From an uncultured Bacteroidia bacterium (GTDB taxonomy: Bacteria; Bacteroidota; Bacteroidia; Bacteroidales; F082), in contig CACZQL010000084.1 in NCBI GenBank assembly GCA_902783365.1, positions 1-32,167 on the forward strand: DNA of 32,167 nucleotides. Reading direction: 5' to 3'. The first letter of the stretch is position 1. Each line of letters starts with the position of its first letter. Of this stretch, positions 10,625 through 30,031 are shown piece by piece. A program made the position numbers and the translations under genes. The notes beneath the pieces were generated by a model that ran no database searches, was not told the DNA's origin, and worked only from the letters and a program-made list of their open reading frames with translations.

Positions 10625-13600
10625 ATGGTGAAATCATTTGGAAATACTTGGTGGGGCAATGAATGGTTGAAGGCTTTGACCCATATTGATTACACCAACC
10701 GGATTCCTCGTGGTGCGACCTATGCGCGAAAGGGGGCCGTAAAAAATATTGAGCTGAAAGACAATGTTATCCATGCAACGGTGAGTGGGAGTAGCCCTAA
10801 ACCTTATAAGGTGAGCATCGAAGTGCCTGCTTTCTCACAGAAATCGGTCAACCAACTGATGGAGAAACTGATGGGGCAACCAGCCATCCTCTCAAAGTTG
10901 CTGAACCGCGAACTTGACCCTCAAGTGCTTGCTATCAGCGAAGCGTTGGGGTTAAAGGTTTTTCCCCAACGATGGGACGACCTTAAGATGTCGTGCTCTT
11001 GTCCCGACTGGGCGGTTCCTTGCAAGCATCTTGCCGCGGTCGTTTACATGTTGAGTCGGGAAATCGACAACGATCCGTTTTTGCTGTTTTCGATGCACGG
11101 GATAGATTTGCTGGAGGAGTTGAAGAAACGTAATGTGGGTATTGAGAAAGAGGCAGTGCTGGATGTACCTGAGATGGCTTCGTTGTTGGTGAGACGAATG
11201 CCGAAGGAATTGAATAACGCCCCTGAGGAGTTCCATCGCCTCGACTTCTCCAAGCTGCGCGACATTTCCGAGCCTTTGGCCAGCTTGCTTCCAAAGGAGC
11301 CTGCGTTTGATCCTCAAGCCGACTTCCAGCTGCTTTATCAAACAGAGATAGGGCGCATGTCGAGGATTGCCCGTCGTATCTTGGATGGAAAAATCAAGCT
11401 TTCGTATTATTTCTTGATGGGAGCGAATAATGAATTGTTGCGCAATGATATCGTTCGATTTGAAATTGATGCCGATGCGGTCGTCAAGATGTCATACGAA
11501 TATTACGGTGTAGTGGATCGTTTGCAACATCCATATAATGATGCATTTTTGTTGGCGCTGTCCCTTCTTCCGGAGGACTATCTGTCAGATTATCATCCTT
11601 CGGTGGCTGCCATGCACCAAACGTTGCTATGTGCCCTGCACCTGTTGGCAATGGGTGCGGTGATACCTCAAATTGTCAAGCTGCATTCTGGGTCCTACAC
11701 GGTGCGTTGGTTGCCTGCCACTATTGACTTGGAGGTGGCGCGGGTGATGAAGTCTATGGAGGAAATCCTTCCGCCTATGTTGATGATGGCGCGTTTGCCG
11801 CAACGGAAACTGGCAGTGGCTTTGAAAAACCAAGCGGAATGTATCGTGTCTTATATCCTTGGCCGGCTGATCTCCGTTTTTTCGGCTTCGTCTATGGGCG
11901 ACCGTTTCAGGGAGCTGTTTTTCAAAGGGAAGAGATGCTTGTTCGACCAAGTAGGTGAGACCACCATTCCAGGCAGTGTCCGCTCTTGGCTCGACCGTTT
12001 CTTCCTATCGCAACATAAGTTCCGTCCCTCGCTGCTCATCCAAGAGGCCGAGAAAGGGGTGTTTGCCCTTGATGTGGCCATCGACAGGGAAGGGGAGCCT
12101 GTGTTGCTGAAGGACATCCTGCAAGACAAAGCCATGGAGAAACAACGTTTTGTTATTTTCAAGGAGCTTTCACTGCTCTCCTCTTTCATTCAAGGGTTGG
12201 AGCAATACATCAATTGCCATGGCTCCTCGCCGGTAATCTATTCCTCCGATGAGTTTGTGCCTTTTCTGTTCGAGGTCATCCCTGCAATTAGGCTGTTAGG
12301 CGTGAAAGTGATGTTGCCCAAGTCGCTGCAAGAGCTGATACGTCCGCGGGTCAGTGTGAAACTCTCAAAAAAGCAAACGGATGGCATGACCTACCTGCGG
12401 TTGGACGACTTGTTGCAGTTCGACTGGCAAGTGGCTCTTGGCGACGAGCTGGTGTCGCCCGACAAGTTCCTCAAGTTGGCGCGTCGTGCCCGGGGCCTAA
12501 TCCGTTTCAAGCAACAATACATCTATGTCGATGAATCCGATATCGCACGGTTGACTAAATCTTTGGAGGCTGGTCATACGATGTCGCGTACCGAGATGCT
12601 CCAGTCCGCATTGACAGAGTGTTACGGAGGTGCAAAGGTGGAGCTTTCCAATGAGGTCCGTCAGCTGATACAAGAGCTTACGGCACAAACCGACATCCCT
12701 GTGCCTGCCAGCATCCAAGCCTCCTTGCGCCCCTATCAAGAGCGGGGCTTCGCTTGGATGTATCGCAACATGCGTATCGGCTTCGGAAGCATTATCGCCG
12801 ACGACATGGGATTGGGCAAGACACTGCAAGTCATCACTTTACTGCAATGTGTCAAGGACGAGGGAAAGCTTGATGAGAAAAAGGCGTTGATTGTGGTGCC
12901 AACGGGTCTTGTCACCAACTGGCAGACGGAACTGGAACGATTTGCGCCGAAGCTTTCTGTGTTCGTGTATCATGGCACACAACGATCGTTGAAGGGTTTC
13001 AATGCTGATATCCTGCTGACCACCTATGGGGTGCTTCGTTCCGATGTGGCGAGATTAAAAAAGATGCCATGGAGCATGGTGGTGATCGATGAGGCGCAGA
13101 ACATCAAAAACTCAGACACCGCACAGAGCAAGGCCGTTCGCTCCATCCCCGCCGACACCCATATCGCCATGAGCGGCACCCCCGTGGAGAACCGGCTCTC
13201 CGAATTCTGGTCCATCATGGACTTCTGCAACCAAGGCTATCTCGGCACGGCAAAACAATTCAAGGAAGAGTACGCCAACCCTATCCAGCGAGAGGGCGAC
13301 GTTCAATTGGCAGAACGTTTCCGCCGTATTACCGCACCTTTCATGATGCGGAGGCTGAAGACAGACAAAAGCATCATCAACGACCTTCCTGACAAGGTTG
13401 AACGAAACGAATTGGCCCTGCTGACTGATGGTCAAGCCGCTTTGTACCACGAGACGCTGCAAAACGCCATGGCGGCCATCGAGGCGGTGGAGGACACTGA
13501 CCAGCAATCCCTCTTCAAACGTCAGGGACTGGTGCTACAGATGATTCTTGCCTTGAAACAGATCTGTAACCATCCCTCATTGTTCCTCAAGAATGGGGAC

Positions 13601-14134
13601 TTCAACCCTGAACTGTCAGGTAAGTCGGAGATGCTGCTTTCGTTGTTGGAAAGCAGCATTGAAAGCCGTCAAAAGGTGCTTGTTTTTACGCAGTTCCGTG
13701 AGATGGGTGAAATGCTTTCGTCGATGATAGAACATCGATTTGGTGAGTGTCCCCTTTTTCTGCATGGAGGCTGTAGCATCAATCAGCGGCAAGACATGGT
13801 GCGCCGTTTTCAAGAGAATCCGCGTTCCGACCAGGTATTTCTTCTTTCCTTGAAGGCCGGTGGCACAGGTCTCAACCTCACTGCGGCCAGCCATGTCATC
13901 CACTATGACCTATGGTGGAATCCCGCGGTGGAGGCGCAGGCCACCGACCGCGCTTATCGTATCGGGCAGCATCAGAATGTGATGGTACATCGTTTTATTA
14001 CTCAGAATACCTTTGAGGAACGCATCGACAGGATGATTCAGGAAAAGCGCCACTTGGCCGACCTCACTGTGGCCACTGGCGAGAGCTGGGTTGGCAAGTT
14101 GAGCAATCAGGAACTTCGGGAGTTGTTTGGGTAA
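10625..14134 (+). CDS. SWIM zinc-finger SNF2-family helicase
   Basis: A 1169-aa protein. A SWIM zinc finger (CSCPDWAVPCKH, from residue 124) lies in the N-terminal half. The C-terminal half is a SNF2/RapA-type ATPase: motif I DDMGLGKT from Asp726, motif II DEAQ from Asp822, motif III MSGTPVENRL, and helicase-C motifs VLVFTQF, GGTGLNLTAASHVIHYD and ATDRAYRIGQ. These are double-stranded-DNA translocases that remodel nucleoprotein complexes. Bacterial SWIM-SNF2 proteins (YwqA-like) are poorly characterised and may act at stalled polymerases or in repair. It follows the MATE gene by 9 bp. Nearly the whole length aligns with the expected architecture and no frameshift was seen. Confidence 0.93.
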   Translation: MVKSFGNTWWGNEWLKALTHIDYTNRIPRGATYARKGAVKNIELKDNVIHATVSGSSPKPYKVSIEVPAFSQKSVNQLMEKLMGQPAILSKLLNRELDPQVLAISEALGLKVFPQRWDDLKMSCSCPDWAVPCKHLAAVVYMLSREIDNDPFLLFSMHGIDLLEELKKRNVGIEKEAVLDVPEMASLLVRRMPKELNNAPEEFHRLDFSKLRDISEPLASLLPKEPAFDPQADFQLLYQTEIGRMSRIARRILDGKIKLSYYFLMGANNELLRNDIVRFEIDADAVVKMSYEYYGVVDRLQHPYNDAFLLALSLLPEDYLSDYHPSVAAMHQTLLCALHLLAMGAVIPQIVKLHSGSYTVRWLPATIDLEVARVMKSMEEILPPMLMMARLPQRKLAVALKNQAECIVSYILGRLISVFSASSMGDRFRELFFKGKRCLFDQVGETTIPGSVRSWLDRFFLSQHKFRPSLLIQEAEKGVFALDVAIDREGEPVLLKDILQDKAMEKQRFVIFKELSLLSSFIQGLEQYINCHGSSPVIYSSDEFVPFLFEVIPAIRLLGVKVMLPKSLQELIRPRVSVKLSKKQTDGMTYLRLDDLLQFDWQVALGDELVSPDKFLKLARRARGLIRFKQQYIYVDESDIARLTKSLEAGHTMSRTEMLQSALTECYGGAKVELSNEVRQLIQELTAQTDIPVPASIQASLRPYQERGFAWMYRNMRIGFGSIIADDMGLGKTLQVITLLQCVKDEGKLDEKKALIVVPTGLVTNWQTELERFAPKLSVFVYHGTQRSLKGFNADILLTTYGVLRSDVARLKKMPWSMVVIDEAQNIKNSDTAQSKAVRSIPADTHIAMSGTPVENRLSEFWSIMDFCNQGYLGTAKQFKEEYANPIQREGDVQLAERFRRITAPFMMRRLKTDKSIINDLPDKVERNELALLTDGQAALYHETLQNAMAAIEAVEDTDQQSLFKRQGLVLQMILALKQICNHPSLFLKNGDFNPELSGKSEMLLSLLESSIESRQKVLVFTQFREMGEMLSSMIEHRFGECPLFLHGGCSINQRQDMVRRFQENPRSDQVFLLSLKAGGTGLNLTAASHVIHYDLWWNPAVEAQATDRAYRIGQHQNVMVHRFITQNTFEERIDRMIQEKRHLADLTVATGESWVGKLSNQELRELFG

Positions 14135-14499: not shown

Positions 14500-15057
14500 A
14501 TGGAAAAGAAAGAAAAAGAAGTTTCAGGTTATCTCATTGGATTCCTGATATTTGTGTTATTGGTACCCGCCTTGATGTGGCTGGTTTCAGGGAGGCCTGA
14601 CCTTTGGATAGTTCCCATGTTGAAGATGCTGTTCGCAGGGAATTCGGGCCTTGGTTTTTTGAATGGGCTTAGGATGGTGATGGTGGTGTTGCTGTCGGTG
14701 CTTGGGCTGTCGTTGAGCGTTTGGTCCATCGTCTATATGCGCCGTAAGGGCGATGGCAATCCCATGGACGCCTTTGGCCATGAGGTGGCGCCTCGCACGA
14801 AGCGTCTGTTGACGGGAGGTCCCTACCGCCTGAGCCGTAATCCCATGTTGACGGGGACTTTCATCTATTATGCCGGTGTGTGTCTGTGGCTTTTGACATG
14901 GCAGGCCTTGCTGGTGTTTGTGGTGTTTTTCGTCATCATGCTGTTCCAGGTGTTCAGCGAGGAGAGGCGTCTCCGCAAGGACTTCGGCGAGGAGTACGAG
15001 GCCTATTGCCGTAAAGTGGGGAGGTTCGGGTTTGGACCGGGAAGCTCCAAGAAATAG
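14500..15057 (+). CDS. Isoprenylcysteine/phospholipid methyltransferase-type membrane protein
   Basis: A 185-aa integral membrane protein of the ICMT/PEMT superfamily. Three or four hydrophobic segments precede the diagnostic block LTGGPYRLSRNPMLTGTFIYYAG, where the RNPM region binds S-adenosylmethionine, and the ending EERRLRKDFGEEYEAYCRKV. Bacterial members have no prenylated protein substrate; they methylate lipids or unknown small molecules. The product is therefore unassigned. The C-terminal GFGPGSSKK is a soluble tail. It ends 1 bp from the convergent YqaA-like gene. Confidence 0.85.
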   Translation: MEKKEKEVSGYLIGFLIFVLLVPALMWLVSGRPDLWIVPMLKMLFAGNSGLGFLNGLRMVMVVLLSVLGLSLSVWSIVYMRRKGDGNPMDAFGHEVAPRTKRLLTGGPYRLSRNPMLTGTFIYYAGVCLWLLTWQALLVFVVFFVIMLFQVFSEERRLRKDFGEEYEAYCRKVGRFGFGPGSSKK

Positions 15058-16860: not shown

Positions 16861-17414
16861 TAAAACCACGGGGGCCAGCGTATTTGTTTTTGCCCCTCAC
16901 TCCAAGACGAGCAATTTTTAAGGCTACAAAAGAGTACATCTTCTGGTGTTTTTTTCACCTTCGGCTACTTTTTTGAGGGCAACAAACCTGAATAATGATG
17001 GAATGATGGAAAGATTCTTTGGCGACTAAAATGCAATGCGTTATTTTACAAAGAAATAATTATATGCCACTACTAAAAGCTTATTTCTTTTTCTCTTCTG
17101 TATTTTTACTCGTTTTACAACACTTTAGTAGCGTAAACGCGTTAGCACTACATAACAGGTATTACAAATACTTTGTCTTTCCTCTTATTCATTCACTATC
17201 TTATAAGTGTTCTCTGAGGCTTTCTCAAGGCTGATTTGCTTTATATAAAACTCAGTTAAACAAACTGCATTATTATTCCTAATAGGAATTATAATTCTTA
17301 TTTTCTAAGTTTTATTTCATTGTATTTCAATATTTTAAAATGTTTAGGAATTATAGTTCCTTGTGTGTATTATGTAATAGATGTTGTTTTGCAATCAAAA
17401 TCAAACTTTCTAAT
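16861..17414. other. AT-rich intergenic region before the RM-like operon
   Basis: About 550 bp with no convincing gene. A 71-codon open frame (17019-17234) is AT-rich and shows no family features. Base composition drops sharply here relative to the left flank. Close to the SEC-C stop is a weak inverted pair (GGGGC / GCCCC) with a T-rich spacer that could help termination. The right part holds the operator-like repeats described separately. No tRNA, integrase or obvious attachment repeat was found. Confidence 0.6.
17275..17361 (+). promoter_or_regulatory. C-box-like operator repeats and putative promoter of the RM-like operon
   Basis: AGGAATTATAATTCTT (17284-17299) and AGGAATTATAGTTCCT (17346-17361) match at 14 of 16 positions. 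Each is an inverted repeat of AGGAA/TTCYT halves. An extra half-site ATTCCT (17275-17280) makes a perfect 15-bp palindrome with the first copy (17275-17289). The copies are 62 bp apart. A candidate promoter (TTG at 17361-17363, then TTGTTTTG at 17384-17391 after 20 bp) would place the right copy over the -33 region. This resembles C-protein operators of restriction-modification systems. Binding by the XRE protein is inferred. Confidence 0.6.
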
Positions 17415-17660
17415 ATGAAAACTGAAATACAGTACAGAAAAGCAATTGGCGGCGCATTACTAGATAAACGCAACTCAATGACCGAGGATGGAATTAAAGC
17501 CACACAAGAAGATGTAGCCTTTCAAGCGGGCATCTCAACTCGTTATTATGGCTCAATAGAACGGGGGATGGTAACACCATCAGTTTACACTTTGGCTAAA
17601 ATTGCCGAGGCTTTCCAGATGTCACTGCATGAACTCTGCGAACTAATTGAGAATTACTAA
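17415..17660 (+). CDS. XRE-family helix-turn-helix protein, probable controller (C) protein
   Basis: An 81-aa single-domain HTH protein: TQEDVAFQAGISTRYYGSIERG is the helix-turn-helix, followed by TPSVYTLAKIAEAFQMSLHELC. Size and layout are those of restriction-modification controller proteins, which first activate and then repress their own operon. The frame is open to an ATG at 17340, but that extension would run through the right-hand operator repeat and reads as cysteine-rich low-complexity sequence, so I chose ATG 17415. It lies 29 bp before the AIPR gene. Confidence 0.85.
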   Translation: MKTEIQYRKAIGGALLDKRNSMTEDGIKATQEDVAFQAGISTRYYGSIERGMVTPSVYTLAKIAEAFQMSLHELCELIENY

Positions 17661-17689
17661 AGAATAAAAACAACATAATAAACAATCAT

Positions 17690-19765
17690 ATGACACAGCA
17701 AGAAAAACAATTTCTCTCCGATTTTATGGAGATGATTAATGAGGCAGCCAGTAATAATGGTACTAAAATCGAAACCGAATTAACCAAAGCCATTATTGAA
17801 TATGTTGTAGATAATGGCGAGGCTCTGTCCCCTGAAATTTGCGAATGCCAAAGTGATTCAATAAGTGAAAAATTCACAGGACGCTATCGCTTAAATGCTT
17901 TTGATTATTCTGAAACCACTGGAATTCTTGATTTATTTGGCACCATCTATTATGAAGGCCAAAGTCCTACCTTACCAATTAGTACTGCTCAACGAATGGT
18001 CAACGATCTTGCAATGCTTTTGCATGTTGCAATAGACGGATCAGAGGCGAAGAAAATCTACCGAGACAAAGACCCGGATGTTGCAGAAGTACTTGATATG
18101 ATGAAGGAAGAATACAAACAAAAGCACATAGAGCTCATCAGATTTTTTGTTCTTTCCAACGGTTTTGCTGCTGATGACCTTGAATTACCAGATGGCGAAT
18201 TCCAACACAAGACGGACAATAATATAATTCCAATAGAATATCATTTTTGGGATATGGGGGAAGTATTAAAAGCCGAGCAACTTCGACAAAACAACAACGA
18301 AATACTTATTTCCTTCCAAGATGAGTACCAAACCAACTTAGAATGTATTGAAACTTATGACGATGTAAACAACATTCGTTCATTCCTCACAATAATGCCA
18401 GCTATTACCCTGGCAAAAATCTACCACAAGTATAAAGTTCGTCTCATTGACAAGAATGTTAGAAACTTTCTTGGCGGGAAAATTAAAGTAAATAACGAAA
18501 TGGCCAAGACTATTGTCGAAACCCCAGAGCTCTTTTTCTCTTACAACAATGGGATTTCATCTACTGCCGCGAATGTCGAGGTTAAAACAGACGAAAACGG
18601 ACGAAAGTATATCGCATCTATTCGAAATTGGCATATCGTAAATGGGGGGCAGACAACATCAACTATTTATAATGCATATCGGCAGAAACAAACTGCACAA
18701 AACCTTTCAAAAGCATTTGTTGCGGTAAAAGTATCAGAAGTTAAAGAAAACGACACCTCACCTCTTGTTGGAAACATTGCAAAATTTGCCAACTCGCAAA
18801 CTAAAATCAAAGACTCGGACTTATCCGCAAATGCTCCATATATGCTTGACCTTGAAAAGCAATCGAGAATACAATGGACTTCATCTACGCATCCAACTTT
18901 GTGGTACTTTGAGCGTTTACGAGGACAATTTCTTACCGACAAAGGAATGGCAGGAGGTCCTGGAACTCTTAAAGTCAAAAAATTTGAAGAAGAACGACCT
19001 CAATCTCAAAGATTCAATAAAACAGATGTGGCAAAACTTGAAATGGCATGGAAAGACAAACCGTTTGATGCTTGTAAAGGTGGGGAAGTATGTTTTGATA
19101 AATTCTGGAAAATAAGCAAAGATGAAACACCAATTGTCGATAGCACATATTTTCAAAATATTGTGGCAAAGTTTATTATATATAAACGCATTGATTCTTT
19201 GCTCAAAATGGAAGGGAACAAAGGCCATGCGAGTATCATAGCCAACTATACTCTAGCATTACTTTCTCTTCGTTCACAGAACAAAATTGATTTACATTAT
19301 ATTTGGGAAAACCAAAATGTACAAGACGACCTCATACCTACCATTAAAGAATGTATTCGTGCAATTTCTGATCAGCTGAGATTAATCGGAAGCGATAGCG
19401 GGAAAAACCCACAAACAGAATCAAAAAAAATAGACTTCTGGAATACTATTCAAAACAAAACATTAAATATTACTATTCCAGAATCAGTGCTTCTTGACGA
19501 ATCTGAAAATGAAATAATAACCGAGGAGCAGAAACAAGCCATTGAGAAAGTAATATCTCGTGGCGCAGATTTCTGGAGAAATCTTTCTGCTTGGAGTAAA
19601 AAGGAAGGTCGAACACGAATGTCAATAATGGAGAAGAAAAAAGTTGACCACCTTGCTTCTTCGATTGAACGAAATAAAGATATTAAAGCAAAATTGGCAG
19701 AAGACTGTGAACGCTCACTCCGCTTAGCCCAAGATGCAGGATTTAATCCTGAGCTCATTTATTAA
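17690..19765 (+). CDS. AIPR-family protein (abortive infection / RM-associated)
   Basis: A 691-aa soluble protein with the AIPR domain. The diagnostic block is FFSYNNGISSTAANVEVK (about residues 280-300), then WHIVNGGQTTSTIYNAYRQ (about 312-331), then FANSQTKIKDSDLSAN. The N-terminal part has the family's typical 'L-x-L-F' strand (TTGILDLFGTIYYE). AIPR proteins were named from abortive phage-resistance loci and often lie inside restriction-modification operons, but their biochemical activity is not established to my knowledge. Here it sits between the controller and the C5 methyltransferase (10-bp gap), so it is the first candidate for the restricting or effector component. Codon and base usage are AT-rich. 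Confidence 0.88.
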   Translation: MTQQEKQFLSDFMEMINEAASNNGTKIETELTKAIIEYVVDNGEALSPEICECQSDSISEKFTGRYRLNAFDYSETTGILDLFGTIYYEGQSPTLPISTAQRMVNDLAMLLHVAIDGSEAKKIYRDKDPDVAEVLDMMKEEYKQKHIELIRFFVLSNGFAADDLELPDGEFQHKTDNNIIPIEYHFWDMGEVLKAEQLRQNNNEILISFQDEYQTNLECIETYDDVNNIRSFLTIMPAITLAKIYHKYKVRLIDKNVRNFLGGKIKVNNEMAKTIVETPELFFSYNNGISSTAANVEVKTDENGRKYIASIRNWHIVNGGQTTSTIYNAYRQKQTAQNLSKAFVAVKVSEVKENDTSPLVGNIAKFANSQTKIKDSDLSANAPYMLDLEKQSRIQWTSSTHPTLWYFERLRGQFLTDKGMAGGPGTLKVKKFEEERPQSQRFNKTDVAKLEMAWKDKPFDACKGGEVCFDKFWKISKDETPIVDSTYFQNIVAKFIIYKRIDSLLKMEGNKGHASIIANYTLALLSLRSQNKIDLHYIWENQNVQDDLIPTIKECIRAISDQLRLIGSDSGKNPQTESKKIDFWNTIQNKTLNITIPESVLLDESENEIITEEQKQAIEKVISRGADFWRNLSAWSKKEGRTRMSIMEKKKVDHLASSIERNKDIKAKLAEDCERSLRLAQDAGFNPELIY

Positions 19766-19775
19766 GGTGTAAGTT

Positions 19776-20783
19776 ATGAACAAGCAGAGTAAAAGAAAAA
19801 AAGCATTAAGAGTCTTTGAGGCTTTTGCCGGGTATGGAGGCGCTTCCTATGGCTTACAACGATCTGGAATCAAATACAAAGTAATAGGCTTTTCTGAAAT
19901 AGATCCTAGTGCCAATAGAATACTCCACCAAAACTTCCCTAATATCAAAAACTATGGAGATATTATTAGTATCAGAGAAGATTTGGAAAGAAACATAAAA
20001 GCTATACCCGATTTTGACTTCTTCACTGGTGGATTTCCATGTCAGCCATTTTCTTCTGCGGGACTAATGCAAGGGGAAAAAGACGAACAAGGACGAGGCA
20101 CATTAATTCACGAAATAATACGTATTTGCCAAATCAAAAAGCCCAATTACATTTTATTAGAAAATGTTAAAGGTTTTCTTGCAGACAGGTTCAAACCGAC
20201 AAGGGAAGCATTAAAAGAAGGGCTAAAAGATTATCATATACGTATGGAAGTGCTCAATTCGAAAGATTATGGAATTCCCCAAAATAGAGAACGGCTATGG
20301 ATTTTTGCAAGTAGAAATGAACTACCCATAGAGTTTACTTTAATTCCACAAAAGCCCGAAGGAGAAAGACCGCGACTAAAAGAGTTTTTAGATGCAAATC
20401 CCCCTGAAGAGGTTTATTTAACAGAAAAACAAGTAGAGCATCTTCAAGTGGTACACGGCAAACATGGACTGAAAAGTTTTGTTGTAGAAGAACCCCTTTG
20501 TTTAGACATTTACAACCATAAAATCAAAACGGATGGTTTATGCAACACGATAACAGAACCAAGCCATAATATTACACGAATTGTTGAACCTGTTGGAGTA
20601 GACGGCAAATTGCGGGTTCGTAAACTATCTATCGCAGAACAATTTCGTTTGATGGGATTTGAAGACGGAGAAATCACCTTCCCAGATGATTTGAATTATA
20701 GACAAATCTCAGCAAGAGCAGGTAACGGATGGGATGTAAATTTGGTAGGTATATTGTTAAACCACATATTTTCACAACTATGA
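19776..20783 (+). CDS. DNA (cytosine-5-)-methyltransferase
   Basis: A 335-aa C5-cytosine methyltransferase with the expected motif order: motif I VFEAFAGYGGASYGL, motif IV GGFPCQPFSSAG with catalytic Cys89, motif VI ILLENVKGF, motif VIII QNRERLWIFAS, a target-recognition region of about 90 residues, CNTITEPSHNITRI, and motifs IX-X LSIAEQFRLMGF and RAGNGWDVNLVGILL. It would methylate a specific sequence and protect the host genome from a partner nuclease. The recognition sequence cannot be read from this. Its stop overlaps the next gene's start (ATGA), so the downstream unknown protein is probably made stoichiometrically with it. Confidence 0.95.
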   Translation: MNKQSKRKKALRVFEAFAGYGGASYGLQRSGIKYKVIGFSEIDPSANRILHQNFPNIKNYGDIISIREDLERNIKAIPDFDFFTGGFPCQPFSSAGLMQGEKDEQGRGTLIHEIIRICQIKKPNYILLENVKGFLADRFKPTREALKEGLKDYHIRMEVLNSKDYGIPQNRERLWIFASRNELPIEFTLIPQKPEGERPRLKEFLDANPPEEVYLTEKQVEHLQVVHGKHGLKSFVVEEPLCLDIYNHKIKTDGLCNTITEPSHNITRIVEPVGVDGKLRVRKLSIAEQFRLMGFEDGEITFPDDLNYRQISARAGNGWDVNLVGILLNHIFSQL

Positions 20784-21376
20784 TTATTGATCTGGCTTCA
20801 TTCGCATTTGGCTGTAATCTCATTGAGGGTACAGGAACTCCTCCATGGGGAACAGCTTTGGGGCAACAAAAACCTGACTATGCTTTCTCACACGAAGGTT
20901 GTAAAGAACTATTAACAAGCATGGTGTATAATATTGTACCTCTTACACAAGTTTATCTTCCAATTGGACGAGGGGGTAATGTTGTGTCAGGGCAAGAAGA
21001 TGCTAATATTCAACTTGCCTCGGTGTTTCATCATGTTTTTGTAAATGGTAAAAAAATCAACAAGCCATTTACGATGATTATCTACAAGGAAGATTCTCTT
21101 TCTCACCCCGGTCGCAGACATCTAAAATACAACCCTAAAATATCTTTTCGACAAAAAAATGGGTTTGTTTGTACAAACGAAGATTTTTTAAGAGATGTTC
21201 GTAATACGTTTTCTCTTTCAGAAAATGCCTGTTGGTTTGTGTATAAAATAGATGCTTCCATTCAAACCGAACTGCATCTTTCTGCCATCTTTGTTGACAA
21301 ACAACACTCTGTCACATATCCTGACAGCCGTACTCGCAAACAAGCTTGGCAACAACTAATCGAATTAGAAAGATAA
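20780..21376 (+). CDS. Unknown protein of the RM-like operon
   Basis: A 198-aa soluble protein that I do not recognise. The start MIIDLASFAFG (ATG 20780) overlaps the methyltransferase stop by 4 bp. A longer upstream frame lies inside the methyltransferase and is rejected. There is no signal peptide, membrane helix or zinc motif. A charged strand-like core (INKPFTMIIYKED) and a basic helical end (DSRTRKQAWQQLIELER) are visible, but no clear PD-(D/E)xK, HNH or GIY-YIG signature. Position suggests an R, specificity or accessory subunit of the system, or an anti-phage effector. Function stays open. Confidence 0.75.
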   Translation: MIIDLASFAFGCNLIEGTGTPPWGTALGQQKPDYAFSHEGCKELLTSMVYNIVPLTQVYLPIGRGGNVVSGQEDANIQLASVFHHVFVNGKKINKPFTMIIYKEDSLSHPGRRHLKYNPKISFRQKNGFVCTNEDFLRDVRNTFSLSENACWFVYKIDASIQTELHLSAIFVDKQHSVTYPDSRTRKQAWQQLIELER

Positions 21377-21407
21377 TTCCTATGCTCTTCTTTTGGGGAG
21401 TTATTTG

Positions 21408-21452: not shown

Positions 21453-23213
21453 ATGGCACTGAAAAGATTTACAATACCGGAATTGCAGCAAATGCGTGAG
21501 TCAGAAGACCATGTGGAGTTCAAAAAAGGTGAGTGTGGCAATGTCTCATATAATGGCGGCGACAAAGTAAAACCAAAAGACCGTCGCAAATGCATTTTGG
21601 GATATGTTATAGCTCTTTGCAACGAAGGAGGAGGGAGGATGGTCATCGGTATGCATGACGGTTATCCACATAAAGTGACAGGTACCAAACAGAATGAGAA
21701 TTCCCTTGGTGAGTTGGAAAGTAATATCTATCGAGACACAGGCATTCGCCCTGAGGTATATGAATTGTTTGAGGATGAAGTAAACAGAAAGGGACGTGTG
21801 GTGGTTATTGAGGTTCCGTCAAGACCAATAGGTAAGGTATATAGATTTGAAGATGTCGCTTTGATGAGAATTGGAGAAGATTTGATACCCATGGATGACA
21901 AGGTTCTTCTTTCTATCCTTCAGGAACAAGAACCTGATTTCTCCGAACAGTTCTGTGAAGATGCAACACTTGACGATTTGGATCCAGAAGCCATCAAGGT
22001 GATGAAAAAGAAGTACGCAAAAAAACAGAAGAATCCATCGTTCGAATCATTAGAGGACAGACAGGCGTTAAGCGATTTGCATTTAATCGAAGGAAACAAA
22101 ATAACAAATGCCGCTGTATTACTTGTGGGTAAAGAACCATTAATTAATAAACACTTTCCCCAAGCTAAGGTTATGCTTGAATACCGCAATACAGAGGCAC
22201 AGATACATTTTGACAACCGACTGCAGTTTGGAGAACCTTTCTTTATTTTGATTGACAAATTATGGGACGCTATTAATATGCGAAACGGATCGGTGCCGGT
22301 CAGAGAAGATTCATATATTTTTGATATACCATTCTTTAACGAAGATGTAATCAGAGAATTAATAAACAACGCTTTTGCGCATCGTGACTATCGAAAAAAT
22401 AGTGAGATTGTAGTAAAGCAATATCCCGCTAGGCTTGATGTGTTGAATGCTGGAGGTTTTCCAAGTGGGGTCACTGTAGATACATTGTTGACAGCGCCAA
22501 GTACACCCAGAAACAGATTACTGGCCGATGTGCTTTCGAAAACAGGTATCGTGGAGCGTTCTGGTCAAGGTATAGACAAGATTTTTCTTCTCACTTTATC
22601 GGAGGGCAAGCCAAAACCCGACTATTCAAAAAGTGATGACTTCACTGTTGTAGTCAAATTGCTGGCCACAGTAAAAGACAAGGCTTTTGCAATGTTTGTC
22701 CAAGGAATACAAGATAGTTTACCAGAGGACAAAAAACTTAATGTTTTTGATGTGTTGGCTCTCTGCGAGATCAGAGATGGACAAAAAAAGCCAAGTGACA
22801 AGCAAATCACCCATAAGTTAGAACAAATGGGCTACATTGAAAAGCATGGGAAAACAAATGCCATCTACTATATTCTACCACGCCACTACTATGAATTGGC
22901 GGGTGATATGGCAGCATACTCGTTGGCTACTGACTGGGACATAAACCAAGTTTGGGCGGTGATATTTCCGTTTATTCAGAAATATGGCAAAGCAAAACGA
23001 TCGGACATAATAAAAATCATAGGCAATCATCTTTCCGAAAAGCAAATTAGACGATATTTGGAAGTGCTTAAAGCCAATGGATTCCTAAAAAAAGAAGGAC
23101 AGAACAGAGCTACAACTTATTTATTAGGTGAAGCTTATGCCGCCAACAATAAATTAATCAGTAAGGCACTCGCCGTAGGATTACAAGAGCTTAAAGAACA
23201 AGGTGAGATTTAA
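21453..23213 (+). CDS. Schlafen/AlbA_2-domain ATP-binding protein with winged-helix C-terminus
   Basis: A 586-aa protein. Residues about 12-130 form an AlbA_2 (Schlafen-type) domain: EDHVEFKKGECG, then VIALCNEGGGRMVIGMHDG. Residues about 300-380 carry the associated ATPase-like module with ELINNAFAHRDYRKN, AGGFPSGVT, APSTPRNRLLADVL and IVERSGQGIDKIF. The C-terminus has two winged-helix-like segments (about 440-475 and 505-555). Such proteins are widespread in accessory regions next to RM and toxin genes; most are annotated as regulators, and some AlbA_2/Schlafen-type domains act on RNA. This one probably belongs to the defence-like island, but a separate role is possible. Confidence 0.87.
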   Translation: MALKRFTIPELQQMRESEDHVEFKKGECGNVSYNGGDKVKPKDRRKCILGYVIALCNEGGGRMVIGMHDGYPHKVTGTKQNENSLGELESNIYRDTGIRPEVYELFEDEVNRKGRVVVIEVPSRPIGKVYRFEDVALMRIGEDLIPMDDKVLLSILQEQEPDFSEQFCEDATLDDLDPEAIKVMKKKYAKKQKNPSFESLEDRQALSDLHLIEGNKITNAAVLLVGKEPLINKHFPQAKVMLEYRNTEAQIHFDNRLQFGEPFFILIDKLWDAINMRNGSVPVREDSYIFDIPFFNEDVIRELINNAFAHRDYRKNSEIVVKQYPARLDVLNAGGFPSGVTVDTLLTAPSTPRNRLLADVLSKTGIVERSGQGIDKIFLLTLSEGKPKPDYSKSDDFTVVVKLLATVKDKAFAMFVQGIQDSLPEDKKLNVFDVLALCEIRDGQKKPSDKQITHKLEQMGYIEKHGKTNAIYYILPRHYYELAGDMAAYSLATDWDINQVWAVIFPFIQKYGKAKRSDIIKIIGNHLSEKQIRRYLEVLKANGFLKKEGQNRATTYLLGEAYAANNKLISKALAVGLQELKEQGEI

Positions 23214-27394: not shown

Positions 27395-29446
27395 ATGAAA
27401 AAAACAATGACCATTTTGCTCACAGCGACAATCGTTTGCTTGACGGCTTGCTGTAACAAGAACCAAGAGACAACGATGAACCGTATCGATAAAAATTGTA
27501 TTGAGAAAACAGTGAAAACCCTTTGCGACAAGTATGCCGATGTGGAAGGTGGTGCAGACCGTATCAAACGTGGCGTGGAGCAGGCGGCGGCCTTCTGGAC
27601 GGAGGCCGACGGCACTCCGGCGGAATTCGAGGCTTTCTGCACGGAGAACTTTGTGGCTGAACCGGATGAAAGGGCTCGCATGGCGGCACAGCTGGAAAGG
27701 AACTTCGAGAGCCTATGGGGCTGCTTCAACAAGATGAATGTGGATCTTAACCTCCCCATCCATCTGGACGGACCCGACCCCACTCCACTCGATGAGCTGT
27801 TTGGCGCTTATAGCCCTTCGGCACATTTCACCGATGACATGTTCGAACAGAAGATCGCTTTCATCGTGGTGTTGAACTTCCCCTTCTATTCTTTGGAAGA
27901 AAAGAATACCCTGGGAGGAGACTGGAGCCGCCAACAATGGGCATACGCCCGACTGGGCGACGTCTTCACGGCTCATGTGCCCGCCGAATGCCAACAGGCT
28001 CTGTCGGCACAGCTCTCAGCGGCTGATAACTACATCTCGAGCTACAACATCCAGATGGGGCATCTGCTGAACGAAAAGGGCGACCGTCTCTTTCCTGACC
28101 TTTCGCTGATCACCCACTGGGGACTGCGCGATGAACTGAAAACGCATTACAATAAAGGTGAGGAGGGACTGGCCAAGCAACGCATGATCTATCAGGTGAT
28201 GCGCCGTATCATTGATCAAAGCATCCCTGAAGGTGTCATCAACAATCCCGACTATGACTGGAATCCTTACGACAACACGGTCACCAAGGATGGTAAAGAG
28301 GTCAGCATGAAGGCGGAACCTGACACGCGCTATCAATATTTCCTCGATAATTTCCACGCCATGCAGCAGGTCGATCGCTACAATCCAAGGTATCCTACAG
28401 CCATCGCCCGCGCCTTCGACGAGGACATGGAGGTGAGCTTCGACGAGATTGAGAAATTGTTTGATGCCTTTTGCAGTTCGCCGCAGGTAGGTGAGGTGGC
28501 TCAGCTTATCGAACAGCGCATGGGTCGCAAACTGGAGCCGTTCGATATCTGGTACGACGGATTCAAGAGCCGCAGCACCCTGAACGAGGATGACCTCTCG
28601 ACACAGACTCGTAAGCTTTATCCTGACCGAGAGGCTTTTGCCACCCAAGGGATGCCCTCGATCTTGAAACAGTTGGGTTTCAGTCAGGAGAAGAACGACT
28701 TCATCTGCTCGCATATCACCGTTGACCCCTCACGGGGTGCCGGTCATGCCTGGGAATCGAACATGCGTTCCGACAATGCCCGCCTGCGCACCCGTATCGG
28801 CAAGGACGGCATGGACTATAAAGGCTATAACATTGCCGTGCATGAATTCGGCCACAACGTCGAGCAAACCATCACCCTCCACAATGTGGATCACTACATC
28901 ATGAAAGGTGTTCCCAATACCGCCTTCACCGAAGCGCTCGCCTTCGTCTTCCAGGTGCGCGATCTTGACTTCTTGGGCTACAAAAACGATGATCCCACCC
29001 GCGAGGCTATGGAGACCCTCGACATCTTTTGGGGTTGCTACGAGATTATGGGAGTGGCGCTTGTTGATATGTACAGCTGGCGTTGGCTCTATGAGCATCC
29101 TGATGCCACGGTGGCACAGCTCAAGGAACAGGTCATCCGCACGGCACAAGAGGTCTGGAACAAATACTACGCTCAATATCTTGGCGAAAAAGACTCACCT
29201 ATCCTGGCCATCTATAGTCACATGATCGACTCACCACTCTATCTGGCTAACTATCCTTACGGGCATATCATCGAATTCCAACTGGAACAACAGCTGAAAG
29301 GCAAGTCGGTGGCCGCCGAGATTGAGCGCATCTATCCTGTGGGTCGTCTGACCCCGAAACACTGGATGCGCCACGCCGTGGGCGGCGAAGTGTCAACGCA
29401 ACCGTTGCTTGATGCCGCTTCCCTCGCACTCCAAACCGTGAAATAG
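27395..29446 (+). CDS. Lipoprotein zinc metallopeptidase (HExxH...E, gluzincin type)
   Basis: A 683-aa lipoprotein with a signal ending LTAC (Cys19). The zinc site is HEFGH with His483, Glu484 and His487; Glu513 in NTAFTEALAFVFQ, 26 residues later, is the likely third ligand, a gluzincin arrangement. The sequence around it (KGYNIAVHEFGHNVEQTI) resembles M3-type oligopeptidases, but the rest does not match well enough for me to name a family. DPP III (M49), common in Bacteroides, needs HExxGH and is excluded. Its N-terminal half is helical and acidic. It would trim peptides in the periplasm or at the surface. Confidence 0.85.
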   Translation: MKKTMTILLTATIVCLTACCNKNQETTMNRIDKNCIEKTVKTLCDKYADVEGGADRIKRGVEQAAAFWTEADGTPAEFEAFCTENFVAEPDERARMAAQLERNFESLWGCFNKMNVDLNLPIHLDGPDPTPLDELFGAYSPSAHFTDDMFEQKIAFIVVLNFPFYSLEEKNTLGGDWSRQQWAYARLGDVFTAHVPAECQQALSAQLSAADNYISSYNIQMGHLLNEKGDRLFPDLSLITHWGLRDELKTHYNKGEEGLAKQRMIYQVMRRIIDQSIPEGVINNPDYDWNPYDNTVTKDGKEVSMKAEPDTRYQYFLDNFHAMQQVDRYNPRYPTAIARAFDEDMEVSFDEIEKLFDAFCSSPQVGEVAQLIEQRMGRKLEPFDIWYDGFKSRSTLNEDDLSTQTRKLYPDREAFATQGMPSILKQLGFSQEKNDFICSHITVDPSRGAGHAWESNMRSDNARLRTRIGKDGMDYKGYNIAVHEFGHNVEQTITLHNVDHYIMKGVPNTAFTEALAFVFQVRDLDFLGYKNDDPTREAMETLDIFWGCYEIMGVALVDMYSWRWLYEHPDATVAQLKEQVIRTAQEVWNKYYAQYLGEKDSPILAIYSHMIDSPLYLANYPYGHIIEFQLEQQLKGKSVAAEIERIYPVGRLTPKHWMRHAVGGEVSTQPLLDAASLALQTVK

Positions 29447-29476: not shown

Positions 29477-30031
29477 ATGACCGATACCATGAATCCTGCT
29501 CAGCGGCATTATTGTATGTCGCAAATCAGAAGCCGCAACACCAAACCTGAACTGAAGGTTAGGCAATGGTTGTGGCATCATGGCTACCGCTACCGCCTGA
29601 ACGTGAAGTCGGTGCCAGGGAAACCGGACATCGTGATGCGGAAATACCATACGGCAATCTTCGTGAATGGATGCTTTTGGCATGGACATGGCCTCACCCC
29701 CAACCCCTCTCCATCAGGAGAGGAGGGATTTGAGAACTCGGAATGCTGTAGGATTCCGGAGACGAATAGGGAGTTTTGGATCAATAAGATCCGTCGAAAT
29801 CAAGAGCGTGACCTGAGGAATTACCAAGTGTTGCGCGAAAACGGATGGCAGGTGCTTGTCATCTGGGAATGTGAACTCAAACCCAAACGCATGGAGGAAA
29901 CGATGAATCGGGTGGAACTCCAACTCAATGACTATTTCCTGCAACTTCACACCCGCAAACGCAAGCCCATCCGCTATCATCAAGATAGCGAAGTGCCTAT
30001 GGCGGCTGAAAAATCTAGTTATAATATATAG
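29477..30031 (+). CDS. vsr: Very-short-patch (Vsr-type) mismatch endonuclease with an in-frame insertion
   Basis: A 184-aa Vsr-family protein, which nicks DNA at T:G mismatches left by 5-methylcytosine deamination. The family opening QIRSRNTKPELKVRQ, GKPDIVM with Asp51, FVNGCFWHGH (residues 62-71), ETNREFWINKIRRNQERD and VLVIWECEL are all present. Numbering matches E. coli Vsr up to His71; the position of E. coli His64 is Asn64 here, a variant I believe occurs in other homologues. Between His71 and the next cysteines about 17 residues are inserted (LTPNPSPSGEEG...). This falls between zinc ligands His71 and Cys73, so zinc binding may be altered. Whether it serves the methyltransferase 9 kb away is unknown. 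Confidence 0.88.
   Translation: MTDTMNPAQRHYCMSQIRSRNTKPELKVRQWLWHHGYRYRLNVKSVPGKPDIVMRKYHTAIFVNGCFWHGHGLTPNPSPSGEEGFENSECCRIPETNREFWINKIRRNQERDLRNYQVLRENGWQVLVIWECELKPKRMEETMNRVELQLNDYFLQLHTRKRKPIRYHQDSEVPMAAEKSSYNI
29694..29744 (+). repeat. Palindromic repeat element inserted in frame in vsr
   Basis: About 51 bp of insert relative to the family. It contains the hairpin arms CCTCTCC (29706-29712) and GGAGAGG (29717-29723) around ATCA. The translation LTPNPSPSGEEG is a widely recurring one from small GC-rich palindromic repeats in Bacteroidota genomes (recalled, not searched). Limits are estimated from the protein alignment. Confidence 0.7.

Follow-up and report, generated by a model that had tools for sequence, protein, structure and literature searches.

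A four-gene operon in a 32,167-nucleotide contig of an uncultured Bacteroidia bacterium (GTDB F082; assembly GCA_902783365.1, contig CACZQL010000084.1; the whole contig is called the window here) encodes, on the forward strand from 17415 to 21376, a helix-turn-helix (HTH) controller of 81 amino acids (aa), an AIPR protein (691 aa), a C5-cytosine DNA methyltransferase (335 aa), and a 198-aa protein that we call X, in this order. X has its homologue in the N-terminal domain of certain McrB-like proteins and, by that analogy, is most likely a free-standing target reader. We postulate that the operon is a modular restriction-modification (RM)-like defense system in which reader and effector reside on separate proteins; we judge this explanation as a whole, which was built from sequence comparison, slightly more credible than not.

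A preliminary description of this DNA had proposed an RM-like operon with gaps of 29 and 10 base pairs (bp) and a final 4-bp overlap. That layout of four genes proved exact, the gaps separating controller from AIPR (17661 to 17689) and AIPR from methyltransferase (19766 to 19775). The RM-like character was borne out as well: the suggested search for the four-gene order found it intact in two further genomes from the same genus (G082 and G086), and the locus holds other RM genes in relatives. As had also been stated, no nuclease is recognizable; none of the four proteins matched a nuclease family in Pfam, NCBIfam, PADLOC, or PHROGs.

X and its McrB-like homologues

X matched no family at all in Pfam (E values up to 1), NCBIfam, PADLOC, or PHROGs. 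Scans of the members of its alignment gave a single Pfam match (E 0.21), a PDB sequence search gave two matches (E 0.76 and 1.4), and comparison of the X profile with the PDB gave none. In these family libraries and the PDB, there was no match to a known restriction endonuclease; neither this outcome nor an absence of the four-gene order elsewhere, both of which the preliminary description had named as refuting it, came about.

A scan of genome contigs with X returned seven loci, including those of G082 and G086 again. In L009 (Prevotella sp. tc2-28), L010, and L011 (Prevotellaceae/Bacteroidales), a methyltransferase gene is followed by one whose product (588 to 600 aa) joins X to an AAA+ McrB-like protein and then by a McrC-like gene; over their first ~195 aa, these McrB-like proteins share 46 to 50% identity with X. 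L012 and L013 carry, in order, three PDC-M33-type genes, a methyltransferase gene, a free-standing X (44% identical to that of the window), a McrB-like gene with its own X-like N terminus, and a McrC-like gene. Window-type X aligned with the N-terminal domains of the L012 and L013 proteins in a profile comparison (probability 99.5%, E 3e-22), and within L012 one X copy shares 32% identity with the other across 179 columns. H109, R112, K116, and H166 are invariant in 10 aligned X sequences.

Two of the fused McrB-like proteins, those of L009 and L013, were scanned for domains. The first scored above the AAA_5 cutoff of 22 bits (24.8) and the second below it (15.9); both matched PADLOC PDC-M26A (1e-37 and 1e-39, respectively), and the genes 3' of both matched DUF2357 and PDDEXK_7. 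The L009 protein also matched Escherichia coli McrB weakly (E 0.005). MT837792.1 (L004), a scaffold from a gut phage, encodes an HNH protein, a methyltransferase, and X up to residue 117, after which the frame departs and the record ends. It was the one record with X in a phage scan, and X was absent from viral contigs (two scans) and plasmids, all of these scans reaching close relatives only. PDC-M33 was matched by scan in L012 only (PDC-M33A to PDC-M33C), the M33-type genes of L013 and L004 being recognized by eye. Scanned proteins of these X-type operons thus match the PADLOC candidates PDC-M26 and PDC-M33, whereas neither was matched by the five window proteins scanned (for the methyltransferase, among the 25 of 63 families listed).

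In LlaJI, specificity is set solely by R1, the McrB-like subunit, and R2 is believed to do the cutting (PMC1459862). According to a review, LlaJI recognizes the unmodified site through a B3 domain, and McrB relatives differ in their reader domain (PMC12707154). We consider X a probable target reader, since its homologue forms the N terminus of a McrB-like protein in a LlaJI-like layout, and in systems of that kind the McrB-like subunit sets specificity. The window operon shares a C5 methyltransferase with LlaJI-type RM systems, and the homology of X to the McrB-like N-terminal domain applies to the LlaJI-like loci L009 to L011. It differs from LlaJI in having one methyltransferase instead of two, in its free-standing X, and in the AIPR protein that replaces McrBC; no McrB-like GTPase or McrC-like nuclease was matched within the window, the whole genome not having been searched for them. 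A C5 methyltransferase is also shared with CglI/NgoAVII RM systems, in which restriction is divided between two proteins, R as reader and nuclease and N as ATPase, and a B3 domain reads the site (PMC4267653).

Several further candidates were set aside. The best of five predicted models of X had a predicted local distance difference test score (pLDDT) of 86 and a predicted template modeling score of 0.84 (pLDDT of the other four, 58 to 77); it matched the B3 domain FUS3 weakly (E 0.27, probability 0.20), with nothing significant in PDB or viral models, X did not resemble EcoRII-N either (see below), and a B3 fold was not adopted. The 193-aa gene after the methyltransferase in a Rhizobium etli MZA-type locus was ruled out as a homologue (probability 0.1%). 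A fourth, weak match to X among the genomes of the family (G024, E 7e-4) was dismissed as chance because it sits in what by eye is an ATPase-like open reading frame (ORF) and no other profile matched within 16 kb, even at E 10.

Controller, AIPR protein, and conservation of the operon

The controller matches Pfam HTH_3 (6.3e-11) and PADLOC HTH_VI (1.9e-8) and Control_protein (1.7e-7). The preliminary description needs one correction: translation of the controller probably starts at the ATG at 17415, which is kept in G082 and G086, the ORF start at 17340 sitting directly before a palindrome. The two operator-like palindromes, AGGAATTATAATTCTT and AGGAATTATAGTTCCT, are spaced 62 bp apart in the window, G082, and G086, and the boxes in these relatives are related. 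Their 16-letter pattern, with up to two mismatches, matched only these two boxes in 32 kb, where 0.02 matches were expected. A small controller-like HTH gene in first position, upstream palindromes, a C5 methyltransferase, and tight packing are all shared with C-protein-controlled type II RM operons, from which the window operon differs in having no recognizable restriction endonuclease. The methyltransferase matches Pfam DNA_methylase (4.2e-56), the TIGR00675 dcm superfamily (195 bits; cutoff, 100.65), and, in the PDB, the HhaI methylase (1.7e-29); its ATGA overlap with X is identical in all nine loci compared.

The AIPR protein passes the cutoff of PF10592 AIPR (255.7 bits against 25; 1e-75) and also matches Pfam AIPR_N (4e-15). 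With MZA systems it shares the placement of a MzaE-like AIPR beside a C5 methyltransferase, but at 263.1 bits it falls below the NCBIfam MzaE cutoff of 1,050 bits. Its branch is set apart by the QxK motif, a nuclease-like motif: the lysine is missing at the aligned column and both neighbors in 26 of 26 MzaE-like sequences, whereas a QxK-like lysine is kept in all 17 other aligned AIPRs (as QxK in 14). A ParB-N structure (5k5d), which had the highest probability among the best 50 structure matches listed (0.60, E 0.18), is too weak a match to claim. The AIPR core was also compared with GmrSD/DUF262-like domains, its NGGQTT resembling DGQQR, and no profile similarity was found (probability 0.2%).

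That AIPR genes occur in RM operons, as the preliminary description held, has been described since 2008 (PMC2292703, PMC3506569, PMC5608340), and one of these papers states that AIPR contains a HEPN domain (PMC3506569). In the excerpts of the literature searched, we found no established role for them there. McrB proteins accompanied by methyltransferases are already known; a census of McrBC systems postpones them to a later paper, and its main text does not contain the term AIPR (PMC11090510). The excerpted open-access literature likewise yielded no description of an AIPR protein with a free-standing McrB-type reader, or of this gene set.

Of 149 relatives, 3 have X, as do 2 of 393 genomes sampled evenly across the order, the window's own genome included in both counts. 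Identities to the window proteins in G082 and G086, respectively, are 90 and 95% (HTH), 82 and 96% (AIPR), 90 and 83% (methyltransferase), and 87 and 77% (X). The ratio of nonsynonymous to synonymous substitution rates (dN/dS) was 0.034 to 0.072 in 11 of 12 gene comparisons, rough values because dS exceeded 1 in 9 of the 11; the twelfth comparison (X between G082 and G086) was saturated. Together with the recurrence of the gene order in two genomes and the paired palindromes, these ratios indicate that the arrangement is not a product of chance.

The nearest relative changes along the operon. The best single break, at 19753, lies ~10 bases before the AIPR stop codon; G086 is favored by 427 of the 535 informative sites to its left, and G082 by 244 of the 384 to its right. 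By region, sites divide between G086 and G082 as 46:18 upstream, 27:14 in the HTH gene, 354:71 in the AIPR gene, 29:33, 24:50, and 23:41 in successive thirds of the methyltransferase gene, and 45:92 in X. Because of these counts, we regard the boundary as not sharp and the right half as less one-sided. The pattern, as read from these alignments, is consistent with an exchange that kept the methyltransferase and X together, apart from AIPR.

Chromosomal locus and neighboring genes

The operon shares its locus with those of G082 and G086, and of the 14 other regions that were examined, 7 have different C5 methyltransferase genes at this spot. Operon genes have a guanine-plus-cytosine (GC) content of 0.37 to 0.42; among 20 other genes measured, 15 lie at 0.50 to 0.58 and 5 at 0.40 to 0.49. 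These 5 include the two genes directly 3' of the operon (0.40 and 0.41). One of them (21453 to 23213; GC, 0.40; Schlafen SLFN AlbA_2 and HATPase_c_4), directly after the operon, was left out as a fifth component because G082 has only a distant relative (29% over 111 aa) and the G086 region has no match.

Table 1. Coordinates of the operon, its signals, and the flanks of the variable locus in the window
Feature	Position	Strand	Remarks
PEMT-like gene	14500..15057	+	Left flank of variable locus
Palindromic operator-like box 1	17284..17299	.	AGGAATTATAATTCTT; present in G082 and G086
Palindromic operator-like box 2	17346..17361	.	AGGAATTATAGTTCCT
HTH controller-like protein	17415..17660	+	81 aa; Pfam, PADLOC; start kept in three genomes
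AIPR protein, MzaE-like branch	17690..19765	+	691 aa; N-terminal domain without QxK lysine
Best-fitting boundary between controller-AIPR and methyltransferase-X halves	19753..19775	.	Not sharp
C5-cytosine DNA methyltransferase	19776..20783	+	335 aa
ATGA overlap, methyltransferase stop/X start	20780..20783	+	4 bp
X, free-standing homologue of McrB-like N-terminal domain	20780..21376	+	198 aa; putative target reader
Terminator-like hairpin 3' of X	21384..21401	+	Weak: 8 such sites in the stretch against 5.4 expected
Vsr-type endonuclease	29477..30031	+	Right flank of variable locus; Pfam Vsr, 4.8e-31

In G082, G086, and many relatives' regions, a Vsr-type gene lies close to the same markers, regardless of the RM genes in the hotspot. 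Upstream of the hotspot lies a gene for a large helicase of the SNF2 type that carries DUF3670 and SWIM domains (10625 to 14134). A 683-aa protein (27395 to 29446) has no Pfam match at E 0.001, and relatives of it, at least partly, are 84% (L165) and 89% (L164) identical.

Other gene sets were seen in relatives and in one viral contig. In the same hotspot of G072 (L162, 4571 to 12770), a methyltransferase gene is followed by an overlapping gene for a 320-aa HNH_2 protein and a McrB-like gene; genes for an AlbA-like protein, 25% identical to the window AlbA protein, and then a McrC-like protein come next. The 320-aa protein has HNH_2 at its C terminus, and its N terminus is related to that of the next McrB-like protein (26% over 85 aa, E 3e-7, a single comparison), an arrangement consistent with reader modularity. 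When the L158 and L162 McrB-like proteins were considered jointly, profile comparison found no X-like N termini. At the hotspot of G061 (L155, 2221 to 7151), a GHKL ATPase containing a Hypoth_Ymh domain is surrounded by three C5 methyltransferase genes. A second C5 methyltransferase of G082 (L005, 12643 to 14634; 432 aa) and its 219-aa neighbor are encoded on the minus strand, a few kilobases from the AIPR operon. In G097 (L084, 3715 to 8965), an EcoRII-like endonuclease and its methyltransferase are divergent from an AIPR gene, which is followed by a 222-aa gene, and a viral contig (L021, 4158 to 8878) encodes a HerA-like ATPase (labeled by eye), an AIPR protein, and a C5 methyltransferase in tandem.

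Proposed mechanism, alternatives, and significance

In the modular system that we propose, the HTH protein would control the operon via the two palindromes, and the methyltransferase, to judge by its family, would mark host DNA at a target site. X would recognize the unmethylated form of that site on incoming DNA, and this reading would trigger AIPR, the effector in place of McrBC. The sequences themselves show the gene content, the homology of X to McrB-like N termini, the overlap of its gene with that of the methyltransferase, the conservation, the differing nearest relatives of the two halves, and a position among other RM genes; these findings, along with the low dN/dS, the low GC of the operon genes, and the LlaJI parallel, count in favor of the proposal. 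The effector role of AIPR is the step that we hold least firmly. We lean slightly toward an abortive or DNA-blocking outcome over target cutting because the AIPR protein lacks the QxK lysine and no nuclease motif was recognized in the operon.

Several observations count against this proposal. X is rare, only 3 of the family's 173 genomes (its own included) having a strong match, and its working partner is deduced from genome context. Its model had no significant Foldseek match to solved or viral structures, and so the fold lends no support to DNA binding; nor did X resemble an EcoRII-N profile of five sequences (probability 0.8%). The first third of the methyltransferase gene is mixed, 45 of 137 X sites side with G086, and the 200 site-order shuffles, none of which reaches the likelihood of the break, ignore correlation between neighboring sites; rate differences could add to the break signal.

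The closest alternative, which overlaps our proposal and differs in the outcome, is that AIPR cuts DNA through an unrecognized active site, giving a type II-like system with separate reader and nuclease. The AIPR N-terminal region does align with AIPRs that keep D...QxK (hhalign 96%, E 1e-9), and its predicted order of helices and strands seems compatible with the topology of a PD-(D/E)XK core. We nevertheless find cutting by AIPR rather doubtful: residues 1 to 215 had no profile similarity to nucleases of the McrC-like, MzaD-type, or Vsr kinds (probability 0.2% in each case), a Foldseek search with the AIPR structure gave no significant match, and the lysine is absent throughout the MzaE-like sequences. 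The preliminary description had named AIPR or the 198-aa protein as the possible restricting component; because the MzaE-like branch is without the lysine that other AIPRs keep, the former is now less supported as a classical nuclease.

The same applies to the 198-aa protein, because the McrB-like proteins that bear its homologue have their own McrC-like nuclease. X could itself be a restriction endonuclease of a new fold, with AIPR as an accessory, as the type II-like placement of an unfamiliar gene adjoining the methyltransferase, the four invariant residues, and the absence of nuclease family matches in the other three proteins would suggest; set against the presence of the same domain in McrB-like fusion proteins, which are encoded in operons alongside a PD-(D/E)XK McrC-like protein, and the lack of any family match or useful PDB match, this seems unlikely. 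It is marginally less likely still that X partners only the methyltransferase, in modification specificity or regulation, while AIPR acts separately. The invariant overlap and the position of both genes on one side of the best-fitting break favor such a pairing, but the X-type domain is part of a McrB-like protein in all five bacterial loci found outside the window clade (L009 to L013). It is very improbable that the operon has decayed from an MZA or McrBC system and lost its function, given four genes intact in three genomes, dN/dS below 0.08 in 11 of 12 comparisons, and conserved palindromes.

Returning to the modular reading, we speculate that the methyltransferase and X form a portable address module for different effectors: AIPR in the window clade, fused McrBC in L009 to L011, and PDC-M33-type genes together with McrBC (L012 and L013) or with an HNH gene (L004). 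Combined with AIPR, this module might amount to a methylation-guarded abortive system, a mode of action that the preliminary description had raised as an example, here acting without cutting, a self/non-self switch of which we found no description for AIPR. We offer this extension tentatively, as possible but on balance doubtful.

Since the only companions of AIPR here are its controller, the methyltransferase, and a candidate reader, its role could be tested with four genes. The modular explanation, if true, would suggest that RM classes can swap target reading, modification, and effector, and the X family now has a first functional hypothesis.
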